DNA of 64,000 nt from a virus. The notes under the pieces are model-generated. The model was not told the origin of the DNA. It ran no database searches and was given only the letters and a program-made list of their open reading frames with translations. Where the stretch lies: the IMG/VR virus record IMGVR_UViG_3300017917_005384, positions 91,190-155,189 of that record. One strand, written 5' to 3'. Shown piece after piece: positions 18,428 to 58,538 of this stretch (positions are counted from its first letter, which is position 1; each line of letters starts with the position of its first letter). Both the position numbers and the translations under genes were made by a program.

Positions 18428-18709
18428 ATGTTATCGCTTTATGATTATCTAGGTCAAGCCGCTGGTAAGGAATTAGGACAACAAGTAGCAGAATATGCTA
18501 AAATTAGAAAAACAAAATGCAGTATGCGTTATGTTTCTAATCCTAAATATAAAGGAAATGTAATATTATACACTAAAGAATTCTTGGATGAGTATTTCGA
18601 AGTAAAAAAACTATTTACAAAACCATATAATATTGACTATACTGAAATTAATACTCAGTTAATGGAAGATAGTATTAAACAACAACAAAATGAATTAGAA
18701 AATGCATAA
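18428..18709 (+). CDS. uncharacterised protein preceding queC
   Basis: A 93-residue soluble protein (MLSLYDYLGQAAGKELG at the start). No known family; there is a basic central part and a Gln/Glu-rich C-terminal helix. It overlaps queC by 8 nt and has its own promoter-like motif, so it is co-expressed with the deazaguanine genes and might be an accessory to that pathway. Confidence 0.55.
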   Translation: MLSLYDYLGQAAGKELGQQVAEYAKIRKTKCSMRYVSNPKYKGNVILYTKEFLDEYFEVKKLFTKPYNIDYTEINTQLMEDSIKQQQNELENA

Positions 18710-19553
18710 TAAAAAACAAGCAGTACTTAGTCTTTCTGGTGGTATGGATTCAAGTACTTTACTACTCCATCTACTTGCTAATGGTTATGAAGTTACAGCA
18801 TTATCATTTGATTATGGGCAAAAACATAAAGTTGAACTAGAACGAGCAAAAGATCTAGTAATGTATCTTAACCAACAATCAGGACCTAATGCCCTTATTA
18901 AACCTATAACTCACCAAATAATTAAAATTGATGGTTTACAACAATTACTTAATTCAGCATTAGTTGAAGGTGGTAAAGATGTTCCTGAAGGACATTACGA
19001 ACAAAATAATATGAAAGAAACTGTTGTTCCTAATCGTAATAAGATTTTTAGTTCTATTATTCAAGCAGTAGCATTATCAATTGCTACTAAAGATGAAAAA
19101 CAAGAAGTAGATATTGCGTTAGGTATTCATGCTGGTGACCATGCAATTTATCCTGACTGTAGACAAGAATTTAGAGATGCTGATATGGAAGCATTTAGAA
19201 TTGGTAACTGGGATTCTGAACTAATTAAATTCTATACTCCTTATTTACATGCTGATAAATTTGGTATTTTAGAAGATGGTTTAAAAGCATGTGAGAAATT
19301 AAATTTAGACTTTAATGAAGTATATAAACGTACTAATACATCTTATAAGCCAATTCAATTACAAGTAGGAAATTATTTAAATAATCTACAATGGTTTTCT
19401 GATTATAAATCAGCAGCATCAGTAGAACGTATTGAAGCATTTATTAAACTAGGACGTCCTGATCCTGTAGCATACGCTGATGAAACAGGACCTGTGAGTT
19501 GGGAAGTAGCTAAAGCACACGTAGAAAAAGTTTTAGCTGAACATCAAAAGTAA
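18702..19553 (+). CDS. queC: QueC-like 7-cyano-7-deazaguanine (preQ0) synthase lacking the zinc cysteines
   Basis: A 283-residue PP-loop ATPase of the QueC family, which converts 7-carboxy-7-deazaguanine to preQ0 with ATP and ammonia. The PP-loop SGGMDSS (12-18), the strand SFDYGQKH, VVPNRNK and GIHAGDHAIYPDCRQEF are all conserved. The C-terminal zinc site is not: the TCY motif is TSY here (S214) and the CxxCxxC stretch is replaced by KSAASVERIEAF, so all four ligands are gone. The following GRPDPVAY matches the end of QueC. It probably ends a unit, since a new promoter motif lies 4 nt downstream of its stop. Confidence 0.82.
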   Translation: MHNKKQAVLSLSGGMDSSTLLLHLLANGYEVTALSFDYGQKHKVELERAKDLVMYLNQQSGPNALIKPITHQIIKIDGLQQLLNSALVEGGKDVPEGHYEQNNMKETVVPNRNKIFSSIIQAVALSIATKDEKQEVDIALGIHAGDHAIYPDCRQEFRDADMEAFRIGNWDSELIKFYTPYLHADKFGILEDGLKACEKLNLDFNEVYKRTNTSYKPIQLQVGNYLNNLQWFSDYKSAASVERIEAFIKLGRPDPVAYADETGPVSWEVAKAHVEKVLAEHQK

Positions 19554-19556
19554 GAA

Positions 19557-19580
19557 GGCAAAATAAAGATATTATCTTTA
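19557..19580 (+). promoter_or_regulatory. candidate phage promoter (GGCAAAA-N9-TATCTTTA)
   Basis: GGCAAAA at 19557-19563 and TATCTTTA at 19573-19580 keep the 9-nt spacing and precede the small HTH-like gene by 25 nt. Confidence 0.55.
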
Positions 19581-19605
19581 AGTAAACAAAAAACAATATA
19601 TAGTT

Positions 19606-19842
19606 ATGAGTTATCAAACAAACGTTCGTGCAAATTACATGAACAAGACAGCAAAATTGGCATTTTACAATGCTCGCAAGCGTGAAGGTGATACTGCTCG
19701 CCTTGCAGAAGAAACAGGTTACACCACCCGTTTTATTAATTATGTGAAGCGTGGTGAACGTAGTGTAAATGATACTGTTGCTAATGCAATGTATAATCTC
19801 GCTCGTCGCCGCACTAAAATGAACAAATTAGCTAATGCCTAA
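19606..19842 (+). CDS. small helix-turn-helix-like DNA-binding protein
   Basis: A 78-residue basic protein. DTARLAEETGYTTRFINYVKRG (residues 29-50) has the pattern of a helix-turn-helix: a first helix, a GYT turn and a recognition helix. Arg codons are CGT and CGC rather than the AGA common in neighbours, hinting at high expression. It is a monocistronic unit with its own promoter motif upstream and a strong terminator immediately after, which is the architecture of a highly expressed regulator or nucleoid-like protein. Confidence 0.6.
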   Translation: MSYQTNVRANYMNKTAKLAFYNARKREGDTARLAEETGYTTRFINYVKRGERSVNDTVANAMYNLARRRTKMNKLANA

Positions 19843-19849
19843 TTTATTG

Positions 19850-19880
19850 ACATCCCCCGAAAGGGGGATGTTTTACTTTT
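19850..19880 (+). terminator. Rho-independent terminator
   Basis: CATCCCCC (19851-19858) and GGGGGATG (19863-19870) form an 8-bp GC-rich stem with a GAAA loop, extended by an A-T pair and followed by a T-rich tract. It closes the unit of the HTH-like gene. Confidence 0.85.
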
Positions 19881-19893
19881 TAAAACTAAAAAC

Positions 19894-20118
19894 ATGAAGT
19901 GTATTAAAAATATAAAAACTGGAGAAATTGTTAGGGTTGAAGATAAATTGGCTCACCAAACTGTAGGTATTACTTGGCAATATATTTCTAAATCTGAATG
20001 GAAAGCAGCCACTAGAGTAGTAACTGAAAAACAAGAAGTAGAAGCTGAAAAGAAAGAAAAAACTGTGAGTGAAAAGGCTGTTAAACGTTCTAAACTTAAA
20101 TCAAAACAAAGAAAATAA
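19894..20118 (+). CDS. small basic protein of unknown function
   Basis: A 74-residue protein. The first 50 residues (KNIKTGEIVRVEDKLA) look like a small beta domain of the kind seen in short phage proteins. The C-terminal 25 residues are highly charged, with Lys/Glu alternation and a basic end. The ClpP-like gene starts 1 nt after its stop. Confidence 0.5.
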   Translation: MKCIKNIKTGEIVRVEDKLAHQTVGITWQYISKSEWKAATRVVTEKQEVEAEKKEKTVSEKAVKRSKLKSKQRK

Positions 20119-20119
20119 T

Positions 20120-20683
20120 ATGATTCAGTTACCTATAGCTAAAGAAAGAAACTTATACTTAGCTAAACAAGTCGATCAAGCATCCATTAATGAAATCAGT
20201 AAGGAGATTATTGATATAAATCAAAACGATGATTATTTAGGAAAACTAGCTGAACTTCACGGAATGAAATATACGCCGAAACCGATTAAACTCTATATCG
20301 ATTCATACGGTGGTTATGTATATCAGTGCTTAGGACTGTTAGGGATTATTGATAAGTCGGTAGTACCCGTTCATACGATCGTAACAGGTGCTGCTATGAG
20401 CTGTGGATTTCTTATAGCAATTACCGGGCATAGACGTTTTGCATATGACAATGCAACACACATGTATCACCAAGTTAGTTCTGTTATGTGGGGTAAGTTA
20501 AAAGATATGGAAGAAGATCTTGAAGAAACCAAACGCCTACAGTCTCTAATTGAAGAACATACTTTATCCCGTACTAAGATGACTAGAGAAATGCTTGAAA
20601 AAAATTATAAGAGTAAGAAAGATTGGTTTATTAATACCAAGCAAGCTTTGAAACTAGGTATTATAGATGAAATTATAAAATAA
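20120..20683 (+). CDS. ClpP-like serine protease (first paralogue)
   Basis: A 187-residue ClpP-family protein, starting at the ATG at 20120 rather than at an in-frame ATG 51 nt upstream inside the previous gene. The catalytic triad is intact: Ser94 in TGAAMSCGFL, His117 in HMYHQV and Asp168 in KKDWF. LYIDSYGGYV is the oxyanion-hole glycine strand. ClpP forms double-ring barrels fed by ATPases such as ClpX; no ClpX/ClpA gene is visible, so it would have to use host unfoldases. Similarity to prohead proteases is weaker. It lies between deazaguanine genes and 5 nt before queE. Confidence 0.82.
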   Translation: MIQLPIAKERNLYLAKQVDQASINEISKEIIDINQNDDYLGKLAELHGMKYTPKPIKLYIDSYGGYVYQCLGLLGIIDKSVVPVHTIVTGAAMSCGFLIAITGHRRFAYDNATHMYHQVSSVMWGKLKDMEEDLEETKRLQSLIEEHTLSRTKMTREMLEKNYKSKKDWFINTKQALKLGIIDEIIK

Positions 20684-20688
20684 ATAAT

Positions 20689-21570
20689 ATGAGTAAAATA
20701 GATCCAAACAAGTTATTAATTAGTAGTGATTTCTACAGCATCCAAGGTGAAGGAAAAAGTAGTGGTATTCCATCATACTTTGTACGCCTTGGCATCTGCA
20801 ATCTTACTTGCGGTATGAGTAGAGTATTTGCTAATAAATTAGCTAAAGAACAAACATTAGAAGACGGGGAAATATTTGTAGGTGATTTACATGCTGAAGG
20901 TAAAGCAACTTGGACTTGTGATTCTACAAGTCAGTGGTTATGGAGAGGTGAAGATAAAGAGTTTCAATATTTGATTGATCGTTGGAAAGAACAAGGTATC
21001 TATGAAGATATTAGAGATGGTATAATCCATATCATTTGGACTGGTGGTGAACCTACAATTAAAGGACACCAGGAAGCAATTGTGAATTTCCATAAGTATT
21101 GGAAGTCAGTAGATCCAGAAATTGATTTATATGATTTTGATGATCCTGAATATAATCCATTAAATGCTCATGGAATGTTTTATAATGAAATAGAAACTAA
21201 TGGTACTGTTCATATTGAGGATAGTTTATTTTTATTGTTAAATCAAATTAACTGCTCACCAAAGCTATCCAACTCAGGTATGACTGAAAAACAACGTATT
21301 GTACCTGCTGCTATTAAGCGCATTATGGAACATAGTAATTACCAATTCAAATTTGTTATCAGTACAGAAGATGATGTTAAAGAATTATTCCGTGACTTTG
21401 TAGAACCATTTAATATCCCACTCAAAAACGTTGTTTGCATGCCAGGATTAGATGATGTAGCTAATTTTGAAGAACGTACTCAATTCTGTCTTGAAATGGG
21501 GAAGAAATATAAGTTTAGGGCCCTTACACGGCTGCACATAGCAGCGTGGAATAAAACATTAAACGTATAA
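20689..21570 (+). CDS. queE: QueE-like 7-carboxy-7-deazaguanine synthase with split cysteine motif
   Basis: A 293-residue radical-SAM enzyme of the QueE family, which rearranges carboxy-tetrahydropterin to 7-carboxy-7-deazaguanine. The N-terminus DFYSIQGEGKSSGIPSYFVR is the QueE substrate/SAM signature, and TGGEPT (GGE motif) is intact. The 4Fe-4S motif is normally C-x3-C-x2-C; here it is C37-NLT-C41, then 35 residues, then TWTC77DST, so an insertion of about 33 residues separates the second and third Cys. Variant spacings are known in some QueE proteins. ETNGT and the C-terminal region also match. Confidence 0.83.
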   Translation: MSKIDPNKLLISSDFYSIQGEGKSSGIPSYFVRLGICNLTCGMSRVFANKLAKEQTLEDGEIFVGDLHAEGKATWTCDSTSQWLWRGEDKEFQYLIDRWKEQGIYEDIRDGIIHIIWTGGEPTIKGHQEAIVNFHKYWKSVDPEIDLYDFDDPEYNPLNAHGMFYNEIETNGTVHIEDSLFLLLNQINCSPKLSNSGMTEKQRIVPAAIKRIMEHSNYQFKFVISTEDDVKELFRDFVEPFNIPLKNVVCMPGLDDVANFEERTQFCLEMGKKYKFRALTRLHIAAWNKTLNV

Positions 21571-21766
21571 GTTATGAGTAAAGAAGAAAAAGAAGAAATA
21601 CTAAGAATATCTAAACATTTACAAGAACTAAAAGATTGGTTAGATGACCAACCTGGACATCCTACTCATTTAAGTAACTTACCAACTTGGTTTTGGGAAA
21701 CATGGGGTGAATGTATTGAAGACTTAAAATACTTAACTAAATAAAACATTAAATGTATAAGTTATG
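21551..21766 (+). repeat. 26-bp direct repeat spanning two start-codon leaders
   Basis: 21551-21576 and 21741-21766 are identical except for one C/T difference; each ends in AAGTTATG, the start codon of a small ORF. The first copy overlaps the end of queE. It suggests a local duplication of a translation leader. Confidence 0.6.
21574..21744 (+). CDS. small acidic protein
   Basis: A 56-residue ORF after queE. It has a charged N-terminal helix (SKEEKEEILRISKHLQELKD) and a Trp-rich C-terminal part (LPTWFWETWGECIEDL). Unknown family. The start sits in the typical AAGTTATG context. Confidence 0.5.
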   Translation: MSKEEKEEILRISKHLQELKDWLDDQPGHPTHLSNLPTWFWETWGECIEDLKYLTK

Positions 21767-21826
21767 GCTGAAATATGGTATAGAATAGTTTACATTCCCT
21801 TTATATATAAATTAATAAAGCATTAA
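21764..21826 (+). CDS. possible 20-residue peptide
   Basis: A very short ORF (MAEIWYRIVYIPFIYKLIKH) that starts in the duplicated AAGTTATG leader. It is hydrophobic and aromatic. It could be a real micropeptide or a by-product of the leader duplication; support is weak. Confidence 0.25.
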   Translation: MAEIWYRIVYIPFIYKLIKH

Positions 21827-21837
21827 TTATATAGAAT

Positions 21838-22017
21838 ATGTTAGATCTTTTAGAAAAACGTATTATTAAAATACTTAAAAACAATAAAGTAAGTAATAAC
21901 CACATAGAGATGTATATAGATGATATCTTTTCATTTAATAATAAAGAACTATATGAACAAGTAGACGACGAAGATATCGTATATGGATTTAATAAATGGT
22001 TAGGAGAGCAAAAATAA
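21838..22017 (+). CDS. small protein of unknown function upstream of folE
   Basis: A 59-residue soluble protein with a basic first helix (LLEKRIIKILKNNK) and an acidic second half (QVDDEDIVYGF). No family recognised. Its 3' end overlaps the promoter-like motif for folE. Confidence 0.5.
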   Translation: MLDLLEKRIIKILKNNKVSNNHIEMYIDDIFSFNNKELYEQVDDEDIVYGFNKWLGEQK

Positions 22018-22031
22018 AAATCGTATATTTA
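22007..22031 (+). promoter_or_regulatory. candidate phage promoter (AGCAAAA-N10-TATATTTA)
   Basis: AGCAAAA overlaps the end of the preceding small gene and TATATTTA lies at 22024-22031, only 4 nt before the folE ATG. The spacer is one base longer than usual. Confidence 0.4.
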
Positions 22032-22035
22032 AAAT

Positions 22036-22761
22036 ATGGAAAATAAACGTAGAAAAATAACAAATGCTGAAACACTAGAAACAGCACAACCTGGATTTGC
22101 AAATGGAATTTCAATCCAGCTCCAAACATTACTAAATAATGGAGAACACCGTTCATTAAATCATCAGGAAAAACTAATGATTATTGAAAATGCTGAGAAA
22201 GCATATGGTGATTTCCTTACAGCATTGGGTGTTGATTGGCGAAATGATCCCAACAGTATGGAAACACCTCGTCGTGTAGCTAAGGCCTATGTTTTAGATT
22301 TATGGAAAGGAAGATATGAACTACCAAGTGATATTACAGCATTTCCATCTGATGGTTATAAGGGAATTGTATTAGAAAGAGATATTCCTATTGTTAGTAT
22401 GTGTTCACATCACCATCAATCTATTTTAGGTAAAACACATATTGCTTATATACCTGGTGAAGATGGTAAAGTAGTAGGTTTAAGTAAATTAAATCGTATT
22501 GTAGAACACTTTGCTCGTAGAGGTGCTATCCAAGAACAACTTACAGTTGCTATTCATAATGCTATTCAAGCTGTAGCTGAAACTGAAAATGTAATGGTAG
22601 TAGTACATTCATACCATAACTGTGTATCATGTAGAGGTGTAAAACACTTTGGTGCTAGTATGGTAACAAGTGAAGTATCAGGTGTATTTGCTGATCATAC
22701 TAAAACAGCTAAAATGGAAGTAATTGAAATGTTAAAATTAAATATGGAGGGATATAAATAA
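22036..22761 (+). CDS. folE: GTP cyclohydrolase I
   Basis: A 241-residue type I FolE, which opens GTP to dihydroneopterin triphosphate, the first step to both folate and 7-deazaguanines. Signatures: SMCSHHHQSILGKTHIAYIP (zinc Cys and His), VVGLSKLNRIVEHFARRG, IQEQLT and HNCVSCRGVKH with the second zinc Cys. Unlike the other deazaguanine enzymes here, its metal ligands are intact. Near-invariant CEHH is CSHH. It overlaps the dCTP deaminase gene by 1 nt (TAATG), so the two are translationally coupled. Confidence 0.9.
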   Translation: MENKRRKITNAETLETAQPGFANGISIQLQTLLNNGEHRSLNHQEKLMIIENAEKAYGDFLTALGVDWRNDPNSMETPRRVAKAYVLDLWKGRYELPSDITAFPSDGYKGIVLERDIPIVSMCSHHHQSILGKTHIAYIPGEDGKVVGLSKLNRIVEHFARRGAIQEQLTVAIHNAIQAVAETENVMVVVHSYHNCVSCRGVKHFGASMVTSEVSGVFADHTKTAKMEVIEMLKLNMEGYK

Positions 22762-28986: not shown

Positions 28987-30618
28987 ATGAGTAAAATAAT
29001 TAAATTTGATCGTGAAGCTAAAGAAAAACTTCAAGCCGGTATTGACAAAGTCAATAAAGCAGTTTCAGTAACAATGGGTCCATTTGGACGTAACGTGCTA
29101 ATTGAAAAAGAATATGGGCAAGTATCTAGTACTAAAGATGGTGTTAGTGTAGCCAAAACAATTGTATTAGAAGACCCAATTGAGAATATGGCAGCTACTG
29201 TTATTAAGCAAGCTGCTCAAAAAACTGTTGATGCTGCGGGTGATGGCACTACTACTTCAACTGTATTAGCATATGCTATCGCTTCTCAAGCATTACAAGC
29301 TACTGCTTATGCCTCAACTAATGCTACTCAAGTAAAACGTGGTATTGAAGAAGCTGTTAAAACAGTAGTTGCTGAACTAAAAGCAATGTCTACTCCTATT
29401 ACTGATGAAAAGCAGATTAAACAAATTGCTACTTTATCTGCTAATGGAGATGAAGAAATTGGCAATTTAGTAGCCACAGCTATTGATAAAGTAGGAAGAG
29501 ACGGAGTAGTTACAGTTGAAGAATCTCGTACAGGTGAAACATCACTTGAAATAGTAGAAGGTATGCAATTTGATCGTGGTTATAAGTCACCTTATATGGT
29601 AACTGATAATAACACAATGCAAGCTGTATTAAATGATCCTTTATTGTTGATTGTTGATGGTAAAATTACAACCGTAAAGGATTTACTTCCTATTCTTGAA
29701 TCAGTATCTCAACAAAACAAATCTTTATTCATTGTAGCTGAAGATATTGACGGTGAAGCGCTTGCTACACTTGTTGTAAATAAAATGAGAGGTATTTTAA
29801 AAGTAGCTGCTGTTAAAGCTCCTGATTTCGGAGAACGTAGAACACTTATCCTTGAAGATATTGCTACGCTTACTGGAGGTACAGTAGTATCAAATCAAAA
29901 AGGTATGCGTTTAGATAAATTCAACAAAGATTGGTTTGGTGAAGCGCGTACTATTACTGTAGGTAAAGAAACAACTACAATTGTTGATGGTAAAGGAGAT
30001 GTTGATAAAATTGAAGCACGCATTGTAGAATTAAAAGCACAAATTGATGCTTCTACTTCACCTTATGAAATTGAAAAACTGCAAGAACGTTTATCTAAGA
30101 TGATTGGTGGTGTAGCTATCATCAATGTAGGTGGTGGTACTGAAATTGAAATGAAAGAAAAGAAAGATCGTCTTGATGATGCTTTACAAGCAACTAAAGC
30201 CGCTCTTGATGAAGGTATTTTACCTGGTGCTGGTGTAGCATTATTAAAAGCAAGAAATGCATTCCATGTGGGTGATCTTGATGGTAAAGATGATTTTAGT
30301 AAAGGAAAACAAATTGTATATCATGCTTGTAAAGCCCCATTTGATCAAATATTAAATAATGCCGGAGTTGACGCTACTAGATTTTACATGACATTAAATT
30401 CTTCTAATACACCTAATCTAGTACCTAACATTACAGAAAATGAATTAACAGACGCTTATGATTCAGGTATTATTGACCCAACTAAAGTAGTACGTTCAGC
30501 ACTTGAAAATGCAGCGGCGGCCGCTGTAACATTACTCATGACAGAATGTGTAATTCATGATAAACCAACAGATAAGAAAAAAGATAATCCTATGGATATG
30601 ATGGAAGGAATGATGTAA
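28987..30618 (+). CDS. groEL: GroEL chaperonin
   Basis: A 543-residue Cpn60 of full length. GPFGRNVLIEKEYG, the ATP-binding AAGDGTTTSTVLA and KVGRDGVVTVEE are conserved, and the C-terminus MDMMEGMM is a methionine-rich tail like the GGM tail of cellular GroEL. Internal spacing around the apical domain is normal. A phage copy with its own GroES could fold large phage capsid or tail proteins or replace host chaperonin under stress. The small protein that follows (30649) and the clamp loader are read in the same direction. Confidence 0.96.
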   Translation: MSKIIKFDREAKEKLQAGIDKVNKAVSVTMGPFGRNVLIEKEYGQVSSTKDGVSVAKTIVLEDPIENMAATVIKQAAQKTVDAAGDGTTTSTVLAYAIASQALQATAYASTNATQVKRGIEEAVKTVVAELKAMSTPITDEKQIKQIATLSANGDEEIGNLVATAIDKVGRDGVVTVEESRTGETSLEIVEGMQFDRGYKSPYMVTDNNTMQAVLNDPLLLIVDGKITTVKDLLPILESVSQQNKSLFIVAEDIDGEALATLVVNKMRGILKVAAVKAPDFGERRTLILEDIATLTGGTVVSNQKGMRLDKFNKDWFGEARTITVGKETTTIVDGKGDVDKIEARIVELKAQIDASTSPYEIEKLQERLSKMIGGVAIINVGGGTEIEMKEKKDRLDDALQATKAALDEGILPGAGVALLKARNAFHVGDLDGKDDFSKGKQIVYHACKAPFDQILNNAGVDATRFYMTLNSSNTPNLVPNITENELTDAYDSGIIDPTKVVRSALENAAAAAVTLLMTECVIHDKPTDKKKDNPMDMMEGMM

Positions 30619-53953: not shown

Positions 53954-54496
53954 ATGCCTAAGCAGCATCGTTCTAAATCAGAATCATTAAGTCGAATTAT
54001 AACTCTTGGTGATATAGAAACTGATACAGTAAACGATATTATTCAATTTATACATGAAATAAACGAAGAAGACGCTAAAAAACAAATAACAAACCCAATA
54101 AAACTCATAATCAACTCAGGCGGTGGAGAAGTATACAGTGGACTTGCTTTAATAGATACAATTGATAACTCGCAGATTCCAATCCATACTATTTGTTATG
54201 GACGAGCTATGTCAATGGGGTTAATAGTATTTGCTGCTGGTCATTATAGAACAGCAAGTAAATATGCTACATTTATGTATCATGAAGCAATATATGAAAT
54301 AGAAGGTAAAGTAACATTTCATAAACAAGAATTAGCAGAAGCACAACGTATTGATGAAATATGCAACCAATATTTAATTTCTAAAACTAAATTCACAGAT
54401 AAGTTATTAAAACCATATAGAGATAAACAAACTGAGTGGTATTTTGATGTAAAAACAGCACAAAAATATGGATTAGTTGATGAGGTTATAAAATAA
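53954..54496 (+). CDS. ClpP-like serine protease (second paralogue)
   Basis: A 180-residue ClpP-family protein. INSGGGEVYSG is the oxyanion strand; the nucleophile is Ser87 in YGRAMSMGL and the His is His110 in FMYHEA. The third residue of the triad, Asp in most family members (Asp168 in the paralogue at 20120), aligns with Glu161 (QTEWYF). The final KYGLVDEVI is typical. It may be inactive, altered, or a partner subunit for the first paralogue; two-ClpP heterocomplexes exist in some bacteria. The tmRNA gene is 3.6 kb downstream. Confidence 0.8.
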   Translation: MPKQHRSKSESLSRIITLGDIETDTVNDIIQFIHEINEEDAKKQITNPIKLIINSGGGEVYSGLALIDTIDNSQIPIHTICYGRAMSMGLIVFAAGHYRTASKYATFMYHEAIYEIEGKVTFHKQELAEAQRIDEICNQYLISKTKFTDKLLKPYRDKQTEWYFDVKTAQKYGLVDEVIK

Positions 54497-56778: not shown

Positions 56779-56994
56779 ATGGCATCTTATTTTCAAGTAA
56801 AAGTTCAGTTTACTGTTGAAGACAGTAAAGGTAAAGTAAAAAAACAAAATGTACTATATTTAGTAGACGCGCAATCCGTTACAGAAGCTGAAGCTCGCAC
56901 TGTTCAGTTTCTAGAATCACAAGGTGAACGAGAATTTGAAGTAAAAGCAGCTTCTGAATCTCCAATTGCTTATGTTTTAACTACAATGGATTAA
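56779..56994 (+). CDS. DUF4494-like protein
   Basis: A 71-residue protein. The motif YLVDAQSVTEAEARTVQFLE fits the DUF4494 family, small proteins known mainly from Bacteroidota and their phages, whose function is unknown. The closing segment ASESPIAYVLT is also typical. It lies 10 nt upstream of tRNA-Pro. Confidence 0.68.
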   Translation: MASYFQVKVQFTVEDSKGKVKKQNVLYLVDAQSVTEAEARTVQFLESQGEREFEVKAASESPIAYVLTTMD

Positions 56995-57783: not shown

Positions 57784-58110
57784 ATGGCATGTCATTATTT
57801 ATACTTAAATAATTCAGAAGAATTTTTTAGTTTATTAAAAAATCGTGATCGAGATCTAGTATTAAAAATGGTTAAGTGTGTAATTAGTGCTGCTAAACGA
57901 AATAAAGATAGTATAGATATATTTGAAATAACATTTAAATCATTAGACGAACTAGTATTTACCATTGATAAATCACAATATAAAGAAATGTTAACTAATT
58001 GTATGGAAGATTTAATCAAAATGGAAGAATATGAATTATGTAGTGAAGTAAAAAAAATATTAGATAAAAAAACTCGTAAACCAAGAAAAAAACAAAATAT
58101 GGGGGCGTAG
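57784..58110 (+). CDS. small helical protein overlapping the tmRNA, paralogue of the gene at 54844
   Basis: A 108-residue protein. The middle and C-terminal helices share the pattern of the protein at 54844 (NKDSIDIFEI, then MEEYELCSEVKKIL). The last four codons, ending ATG GGG GCG TAG, run into the tmRNA: its 5' end begins at 58101, so CDS and RNA overlap by 10 nt. The basic tail (KKTRKPRKKQNMGA) could bind nucleic acid. Confidence 0.6.
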   Translation: MACHYLYLNNSEEFFSLLKNRDRDLVLKMVKCVISAAKRNKDSIDIFEITFKSLDELVFTIDKSQYKEMLTNCMEDLIKMEEYELCSEVKKILDKKTRKPRKKQNMGA

Positions 58111-58489
58111 TGGCAATTGATTCGTAATGTGAAAGTAACACTACATGCAGGCGTTTGGTAATGTCGCCTTAGAAAATTACAAACAGTAAATGACGAAATG
58201 TCAACTATGACCTTCGACGACCTTATGGCGTTCGTAGGCGCCGATTACGCTGTAGCAGCCTAATCCGCATCGGGTGTAAGTAACCTAGGAACAGAATACT
58301 ACCGAGTATTTCACAATCTACTCGTTAAATAACGACAGTGAAATAGTTTTCTCTATAGTCATAAAATAGAGTGGTGGAGCTGACCATAACCAGTCATCCC
58401 TTACTGATCAGATTTATCAGATCTAAGCATGTGAAACGTTGGTGTTATTATTCCTTATGAAGACGAGGATTCGACTTCCTCCGCCTCCA
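58101..58489 (+). ncRNA. ssrA: transfer-messenger RNA (tmRNA, ssrA)
   Basis: A one-piece tmRNA of about 389 nt. Its ends form a tRNA-like domain: GGGGGCG (58101-58107) pairs with CGCCTCC (58482-58488), including a G3-U70 wobble that marks alanine tRNA, with discriminator A and no encoded CCA. The T-arm GAGGA-TTCGACT-TCCTC is intact. The internal tag reading frame runs from about 58186 or 58189 to TAA at 58261-58263, ending YAVAA. The resume region reads CAGTA-AAT-GAC-GAA, similar to cellular tmRNAs. A terminator follows directly. tmRNA rescues stalled ribosomes and adds a degradation tag. Confidence 0.93.
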
Positions 58490-58491
58490 CT

Positions 58492-58521
58492 AAAGGCAAC
58501 CTAAATTGGGTTGCCTTTTTT
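58492..58521 (+). terminator. Rho-independent terminator of the tmRNA
   Basis: AAAGGCAACC (58492-58501) pairs with GGTTGCCTTT around a TAAATTG loop and runs directly into a tract of T residues. Confidence 0.9.
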
Positions 58522-58538
58522 CATATATTTATACATAT

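Follow-up and report, generated by a model that had tools for sequence, protein, structure and literature searches.

The window analysed here, a 64,000-nucleotide stretch taken from a virus record of 155,189 bases (positions 91190-155189), carries a genuine, phage-encoded one-piece tmRNA. The Rfam tmRNA family RF00023 matches the + strand end to end at 58101-58492, scoring 63.3 bits where the cutoff is 47 (E 2.3e-22), and the match was found at the same place when the whole virus record was scanned. The features considered below are the following.

58101..58489, + strand: phage tmRNA gene, mature RNA without CCA (RF00023; the Rfam match extends to 58492)
58101..58107, + strand: acceptor stem 5' strand GGGGGCG, including G3 of G3-U70 (sequence)
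58149..58153, + strand: 5' strand of PK1 stem S1, AGGCG (pairing over 65 relatives)
58158..58162, + strand: 5' strand of PK1 stem S2, GTAAT (support weaker than for S1)
58165..58169, + strand: 3' strand of PK1 stem S1, CGCCT (pairing over relatives)
58176..58180, + strand: 3' strand of PK1 stem S2, ATTAC (pairing over relatives)
58187..58191, + strand: frame-setting element TAAAT (YA[AG]NN|G in relatives; rule from PMC2481249)
58192..58263, + strand: most probable tag frame, resume codon GAC 58192, DEMSTMTFDDLMAFVGADYAVAA, stop TAA 58261-58263 (element, conservation, ARAGORN in relatives)
58198..58245, + strand: extra module MSTMTFDDLMAFVGAD, codons 3-18 (pN/pS lower than in the other frames)
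58482..58489, + strand: acceptor stem 3' strand CGCCTCC (58482-58488) and discriminator A58489 (sequence)
58494..58522, + strand: terminator-like hairpin AAGGCAACC/GGTTGCCTT, then a T run (sequence)
53954..54496, + strand: ClpP-like protein, 180 aa, putative partner (PF00574)
20069..20683, + strand: second ClpP-like protein, 204 aa, putative partner (PF00574; PDB ClpP matches)

The acceptor stem reads as 7 bp with the alanine G3-U70 pair, and the T-arm is intact in both the sequence and the RF00023 match, so that the GGGGGCG/CGCCTCC stem and T-arm described in an earlier note on this DNA were both seen in their places. CCA is not encoded at the 3' end, where ACTA stands instead, and the terminator-like hairpin follows directly. 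Upstream, an ORF at 57784-58110 shares 10 nt with the 5' end of the tmRNA, and three tRNA genes lie approximately 1 kb away. The window's copy was not reported by ARAGORN; many of the relatives' tmRNAs were found by the program, most with the same tag reading. In addition, GOLLD RNAs were seen near the tRNA arrays of the related phages L005, L006, L008, L010 and L020, and L005 and L006 also gave a group I intron match.

Relatives were collected from IMG/VR contigs, where exact copies of the 24-nt tag core are found in 11 stretches; a degenerate core (roughly MTF[DE]DLM) matches 112 stretches, of which many are tmRNAs bearing the window's tag. The core scan, a tag-blind scan with the 5' end (at least 120 matches) and a third scan gathered at least 121 full-length tmRNA candidates, a few of which are false. 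Dozens of related phage tmRNAs share the window's tag family, designated G1, whose tags (VELSTW forms among them) are 22-26 aa long. There are at least two more families of long tags: G2, comprising GETFAKLSAIGLIREESVVAA and its kin (20-22 aa), and G3 (25-36 aa). One further tag, DANKQARIAEGEAILASIFSSVAVAA, falls outside all three. Because tag or scaffold entered in part into the choice of the scans, these family counts are not frequencies. Short tags also occur among the relatives (AEENNFALAA, GNAEYAMAA and GVNNYALAA), and some relatives' tags end in ATFA or VAVA, not ALAA. In L054, L081, L083 and L084 the tag end is GADEATFA, and the YAVAA end is thus not universal in the window's family. 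Comparison of L003 7834-8143 and L113 with L004 7834-8220 revealed a 77-nt deletion that removes the tag end (the frame would end FVGRLIK), either a variant or an assembly artefact. A blastn search of isolated phages revealed nothing related to the window's tmRNA; no tmRNA match was obtained in the Flavobacterium phages MaF61 and immuto, and the exact-residue core pattern had no match over genome contigs. A tblastn search with the 24-residue tag was uninformative, the same search having also missed the mycobacteriophage tag, which is present in ET08.

Comparison among these relatives reveals the first pseudoknot of a tmRNA. Over the 65 distinct relatives counted, 95.4% of cells in stem S1 of PK1 are base-paired. 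Sliding the strands by 1-3 nt lowers this to 31-60%, and A-U, G-C, U-A and C-G interchange within the stem as compensatory changes. Since the MAFFT alignment A1 shifts S1 by one column between subgroups, the pairs were counted with explicit anchors. For S2, a helix of at least 5 bp was found in 75% of relatives compared with 52% of shuffles. Further downstream, an RNAalifold consensus over 14 relatives contains 12 pairs with changes on both sides, within consensus stems. The earlier note had made its tmRNA reading depend on the pseudoknots of tmRNA models; PK1 is present with covariation, and the downstream consensus stems are candidate parts of PK2-4.

The resume codon, which the earlier note had rightly singled out as the key question, is by comparison most probably GAC at 58192-58194, giving a tag of 23 codons, DEMSTMTFDDLMAFVGADYAVAA. 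In E. coli, 11 nt, AAAAAAUAGUC, separate PK1 from the resume codon, and A86, 4 nt upstream of that codon, sets the frame with the help of U85 and a purine at 87 (PMC2481249). In the window, the PK1 3' strand ends at 58180 and is followed by 11 nt, AAACAGUAAAU, and then by GAC 58192, a distance equal to that of E. coli; the spacing is 10-12 nt in 46 of the 56 relatives with a clear second stem. The upstream element YA[AG]NN|G is kept in 64/64 relatives of the same tag family and a competing site before a G-A codon near the tag end in 45/64, the former figure being somewhat favoured by the search in that the relatives were gathered partly by a script using the element, although it played no part in the pattern scans that located their loci. 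Among 120 host tmRNAs of Bacteroidota that were picked for a GENNYALAA or GETNYALAA tag, most have the element in the form TAANY|GGC. Resumption at GAC 58192 is therefore favoured because UAAAU|G fits the known element, the spacing is E. coli-like, the upstream site is the better conserved, ARAGORN reads DEMSTMTFDDLMAFVGADYAVAA in the relatives L025, L449 and L458, and the codons evolve as a peptide. The earlier proposal of a start at GTA 58186 (25 codons) or AAT 58189 (24 codons) was correct as to the frame, which is open to TAA at 58261 and ends YAVAA, and most probably not as to the codon: AAT and GTA are the -1 and -2 triplets to GAC, and the residues that they encode vary freely among relatives (N/T and V/I/T, respectively).

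A downstream resume codon, at GGC 58237 (GADYAVAA, the 8-codon alternative of the earlier note) or at GCC 58240 (ADYAVAA), would yield a tag of ordinary length and leave the upstream codons untranslated. UAGGC|GCC at 58235-58242 also fits the element, and shorter readings were chosen by ARAGORN in the relatives L461, L513 and L501. However, this site is the less conserved of the two, it lies approximately 60 nt from PK1 instead of 10-12, position -4 of GGC 58237 is C rather than A, and the codons upstream of it evolve as a peptide. Resumption there appears extremely improbable, and the comparison did not place the resume codon at 58237.

The tag from GAC 58192 bears the signature of selection on a peptide. 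In a set of 37 different 23-codon tag DNAs, codon positions 1, 2 and 3 have diversities of 0.10, 0.06 and 0.28, and pN/pS comes to 0.21 for the tag frame but to 1.22 and 1.18 for the two others; restricted to the inserted codons 3-18, in 28 tags from full-length genes, it is 0.22 for the tag frame and 1.43 and 1.51 out of frame, all of these ratios being counts over related sequences that give the direction, not an exact significance, with pN lowered because most loci were found by patterns fixing some tag residues. The contrast was weaker for the G2 tags (0.63 in frame against 0.79 and 1.24 out of frame). Sequence comparison thus shows that a module of approximately 16 residues is kept by selection as a peptide and so does something as a peptide; selection says no more than this, and the earlier note's suggestion that the long tag may direct substrates to a different protease or mark products for phage use is a hypothesis that goes beyond it. 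Such conservation bears on the proposal that the tmRNA serves ribosome release and that the tag's sequence does not matter to the phage. In E. coli, a lambda-P22 hybrid phage does need release and neither tag function nor the correct frame (PMC2481249), but the whole tag is conserved here at the peptide level, which makes release as the sole role improbable.

What the module does was approached through its sequence. An amphipathic helix was rejected as its feature, the hydrophobic moment of ten representative tags being no better than that of shuffles. A single motif common to all long phage tags was likewise not found, as pairwise BLOSUM tests were mostly not significant, with the exception of G3a with G3b and of matches lying mainly in the C-terminal end. 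With a post hoc profile built from the window's tag family, which serves as a lead only, p was 0.004 for LR756501 (whose tmRNA match is weak), 0.03 for one G2 tag, 0.06 for LR756508 and 0.21 for ET08. That no common motif holds up, and that several unrelated modules serve different phage groups, would suit a spacer, i.e., a long unstructured tail that eases engagement by ClpXP and has no specific partner. Yet the module in the window's family is strongly conserved residue by residue, and five residues are already enough for ClpXP degradation of GFP (GFP-yalaa; PMC7652416); a spacer is accordingly a rather unlikely account, if one of some weight.

The likely hosts use a different mark. The host phylum is probably Bacteroidota, as suggested by a DUF4494 protein (56779-56994) that matches only Flavobacterium, Porphyromonas and Parabacteroides phages; an adenylosuccinate lyase-like protein matches a Flavobacterium phage and also phages of other hosts. 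A tmRNA match at E <= 0.001 was obtained in 99/99 genomes of Bacteroidota, and in 96 of them it was above the curated cutoff. In a sample of 50, the host tags readable by script are 9-10 aa long, and the earlier observation that the window's tag far exceeds those of Bacteroidota is borne out by comparison (23 vs 9-10 aa in the sampled host genomes). A tree built from the tmRNAs with the tags removed groups G2 in a single clade and the 17 host tmRNAs in another (100/100 each), but not G1 (5 changes); its long branches leave the deep order unsure. Since it is over twice the length of the likely hosts' tags and its added stretch is conserved at the peptide level in many related viruses, the tag probably gives this virus a mark for unfinished proteins that is different from the one its host uses.

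Altogether, we consider it rather likely that this is a working tmRNA of a T4-like phage that uses host SmpB, and whose selected module provides a second contact altering how tagged proteins are captured for destruction. Its G3-U70 pair predicts charging with alanine, and SmpB, presumably supplied by the host, would bring the tmRNA to ribosomes stalled on broken mRNAs; no SmpB gene was found in the virus record, which is possibly incomplete. With GAC 58192 then positioned in the A site by the UAAAU element, the ribosome would append Ala-DEMSTMTFDDLMAFVGADYAVAA and terminate at TAA. The Y-A-V-A-A end is ssrA-like and could be gripped by ClpXP-type proteases, presumably leading to degradation; ClpX reads mainly the terminal Ala-Ala and degrades longer-tagged substrates too (PMC7652416). 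Through the module, a host protease or adaptor would gain a second point of contact, as in the extended Mycoplasma tag, whose recognition by Lon is described by Gur and Sauer (2008) and Ge and Karzai (2009), as relayed in PMC3985003 and PMC11986505. This role is favoured because the module acts as a peptide and the Mycoplasma tag with Lon is the nearest precedent; taken alone, it is a tentative step, somewhat short of an even chance. A broader proposal, that phages repeatedly evolved extended tags in which a lineage-specific module hands products to a receptor other than that of the host tag (another protease, an adaptor or a phage factor), is possible, though on the doubtful side.

The receptor might also be encoded by the phage itself, with the long tag feeding proteins to its two ClpP-like proteins. 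One of their genes lies 3.6 kb upstream of the tmRNA, and a T4-type prohead protease is also present (G000 68892-69323), so the ClpP-like proteins need not be the capsid protease. However, co-occurrence is poor, as ClpP was found in 7/25 related records and several long records with the window's tag are without it; there is no AAA_2 (Clp-type) unfoldase match, and the copy at 53954 seems from the alignment to carry Glu at the place of the catalytic Asp. Delivery to phage ClpP is thus very improbable. Elsewhere in the window, a GroEL-like chaperonin is encoded at 28987-30618 (phrog_5725, E 2.4e-152), and QueC-like, QueE-like and GTP cyclohydrolase genes, with one ClpP-like gene among them, occupy 18702-22761, a set that points to 7-deazaguanine DNA modification or to queuosine synthesis.

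Neither phage tmRNAs nor single long tags are new. Here, a widespread phage group keeps selected tags of 20-36 residues, while bacterial trans-translation tags are short. According to a 2025 tmRNA database paper, the commonest tag length among 97,179 sequences is 10 aa, and the extremes reported there, with RefSeq viruses included, are very short tags (PMC11915505). In the literature searched, which was mostly open-access, no paper describing families of long, conserved phage tags was found. ARAGORN misses or misreads several long-tag genes, and surveys based on it may therefore undercount long tags. Swapping or cutting the tag makes the question of why phages carry tmRNAs directly testable, and long phage tags are natural degrons to try.

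Among known systems, the Bacteroidota ssrA (GENNYALAA) has in common with the window's tmRNA the RNA fold, the alanine acceptor, the UAANY|G element and the tag end -AA, but its tags are 9-10 aa rather than 23, and the window's tmRNA lies far from host tmRNAs in the tree. The mycobacteriophage ET08 (Bxz1 type) likewise has a phage tmRNA with a long tag, ATDTDATVTDAEIEAFFAEEAAALV, of 25 aa, read from the sequence at UAAAC|GCA and given identically by ARAGORN, in agreement with the mycobacteriophage precedent cited in the earlier note; however, its tag ends ALV, its host is actinobacterial, and similarity to the window's tag is not significant (p 0.11 as a pair, 0.21 with the profile). The huge phages LR756508 (36 aa) and LR756504 (24 aa) have similarly long tags, both at UAANY|G elements, with unrelated tag sequences, and LR756501 has perhaps a 33-aa tag on a weak RNA match. 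Tags are 9-10 aa in the huge phages LR756511 and LR756500, 11 aa in Streptomyces phage Jay2Jay, and 13 aa in Bacillus phage G if the first fitting element is used. A second RF00023 match stands beside the full tmRNA in LR756508 (414804-414915, L694; 112 nt) and in LR756511 (2250-2386, L713; 137 nt), and these short matches resemble the tRNA-like-domain-only tmRNA of phage DS6A. Finally, the Mycoplasma tag, found in cells without ClpXP (PMC3985003), is also extended, with more than one contact region; it ends AFA in place of ALAA, whereas the window's tag ends AVAA.
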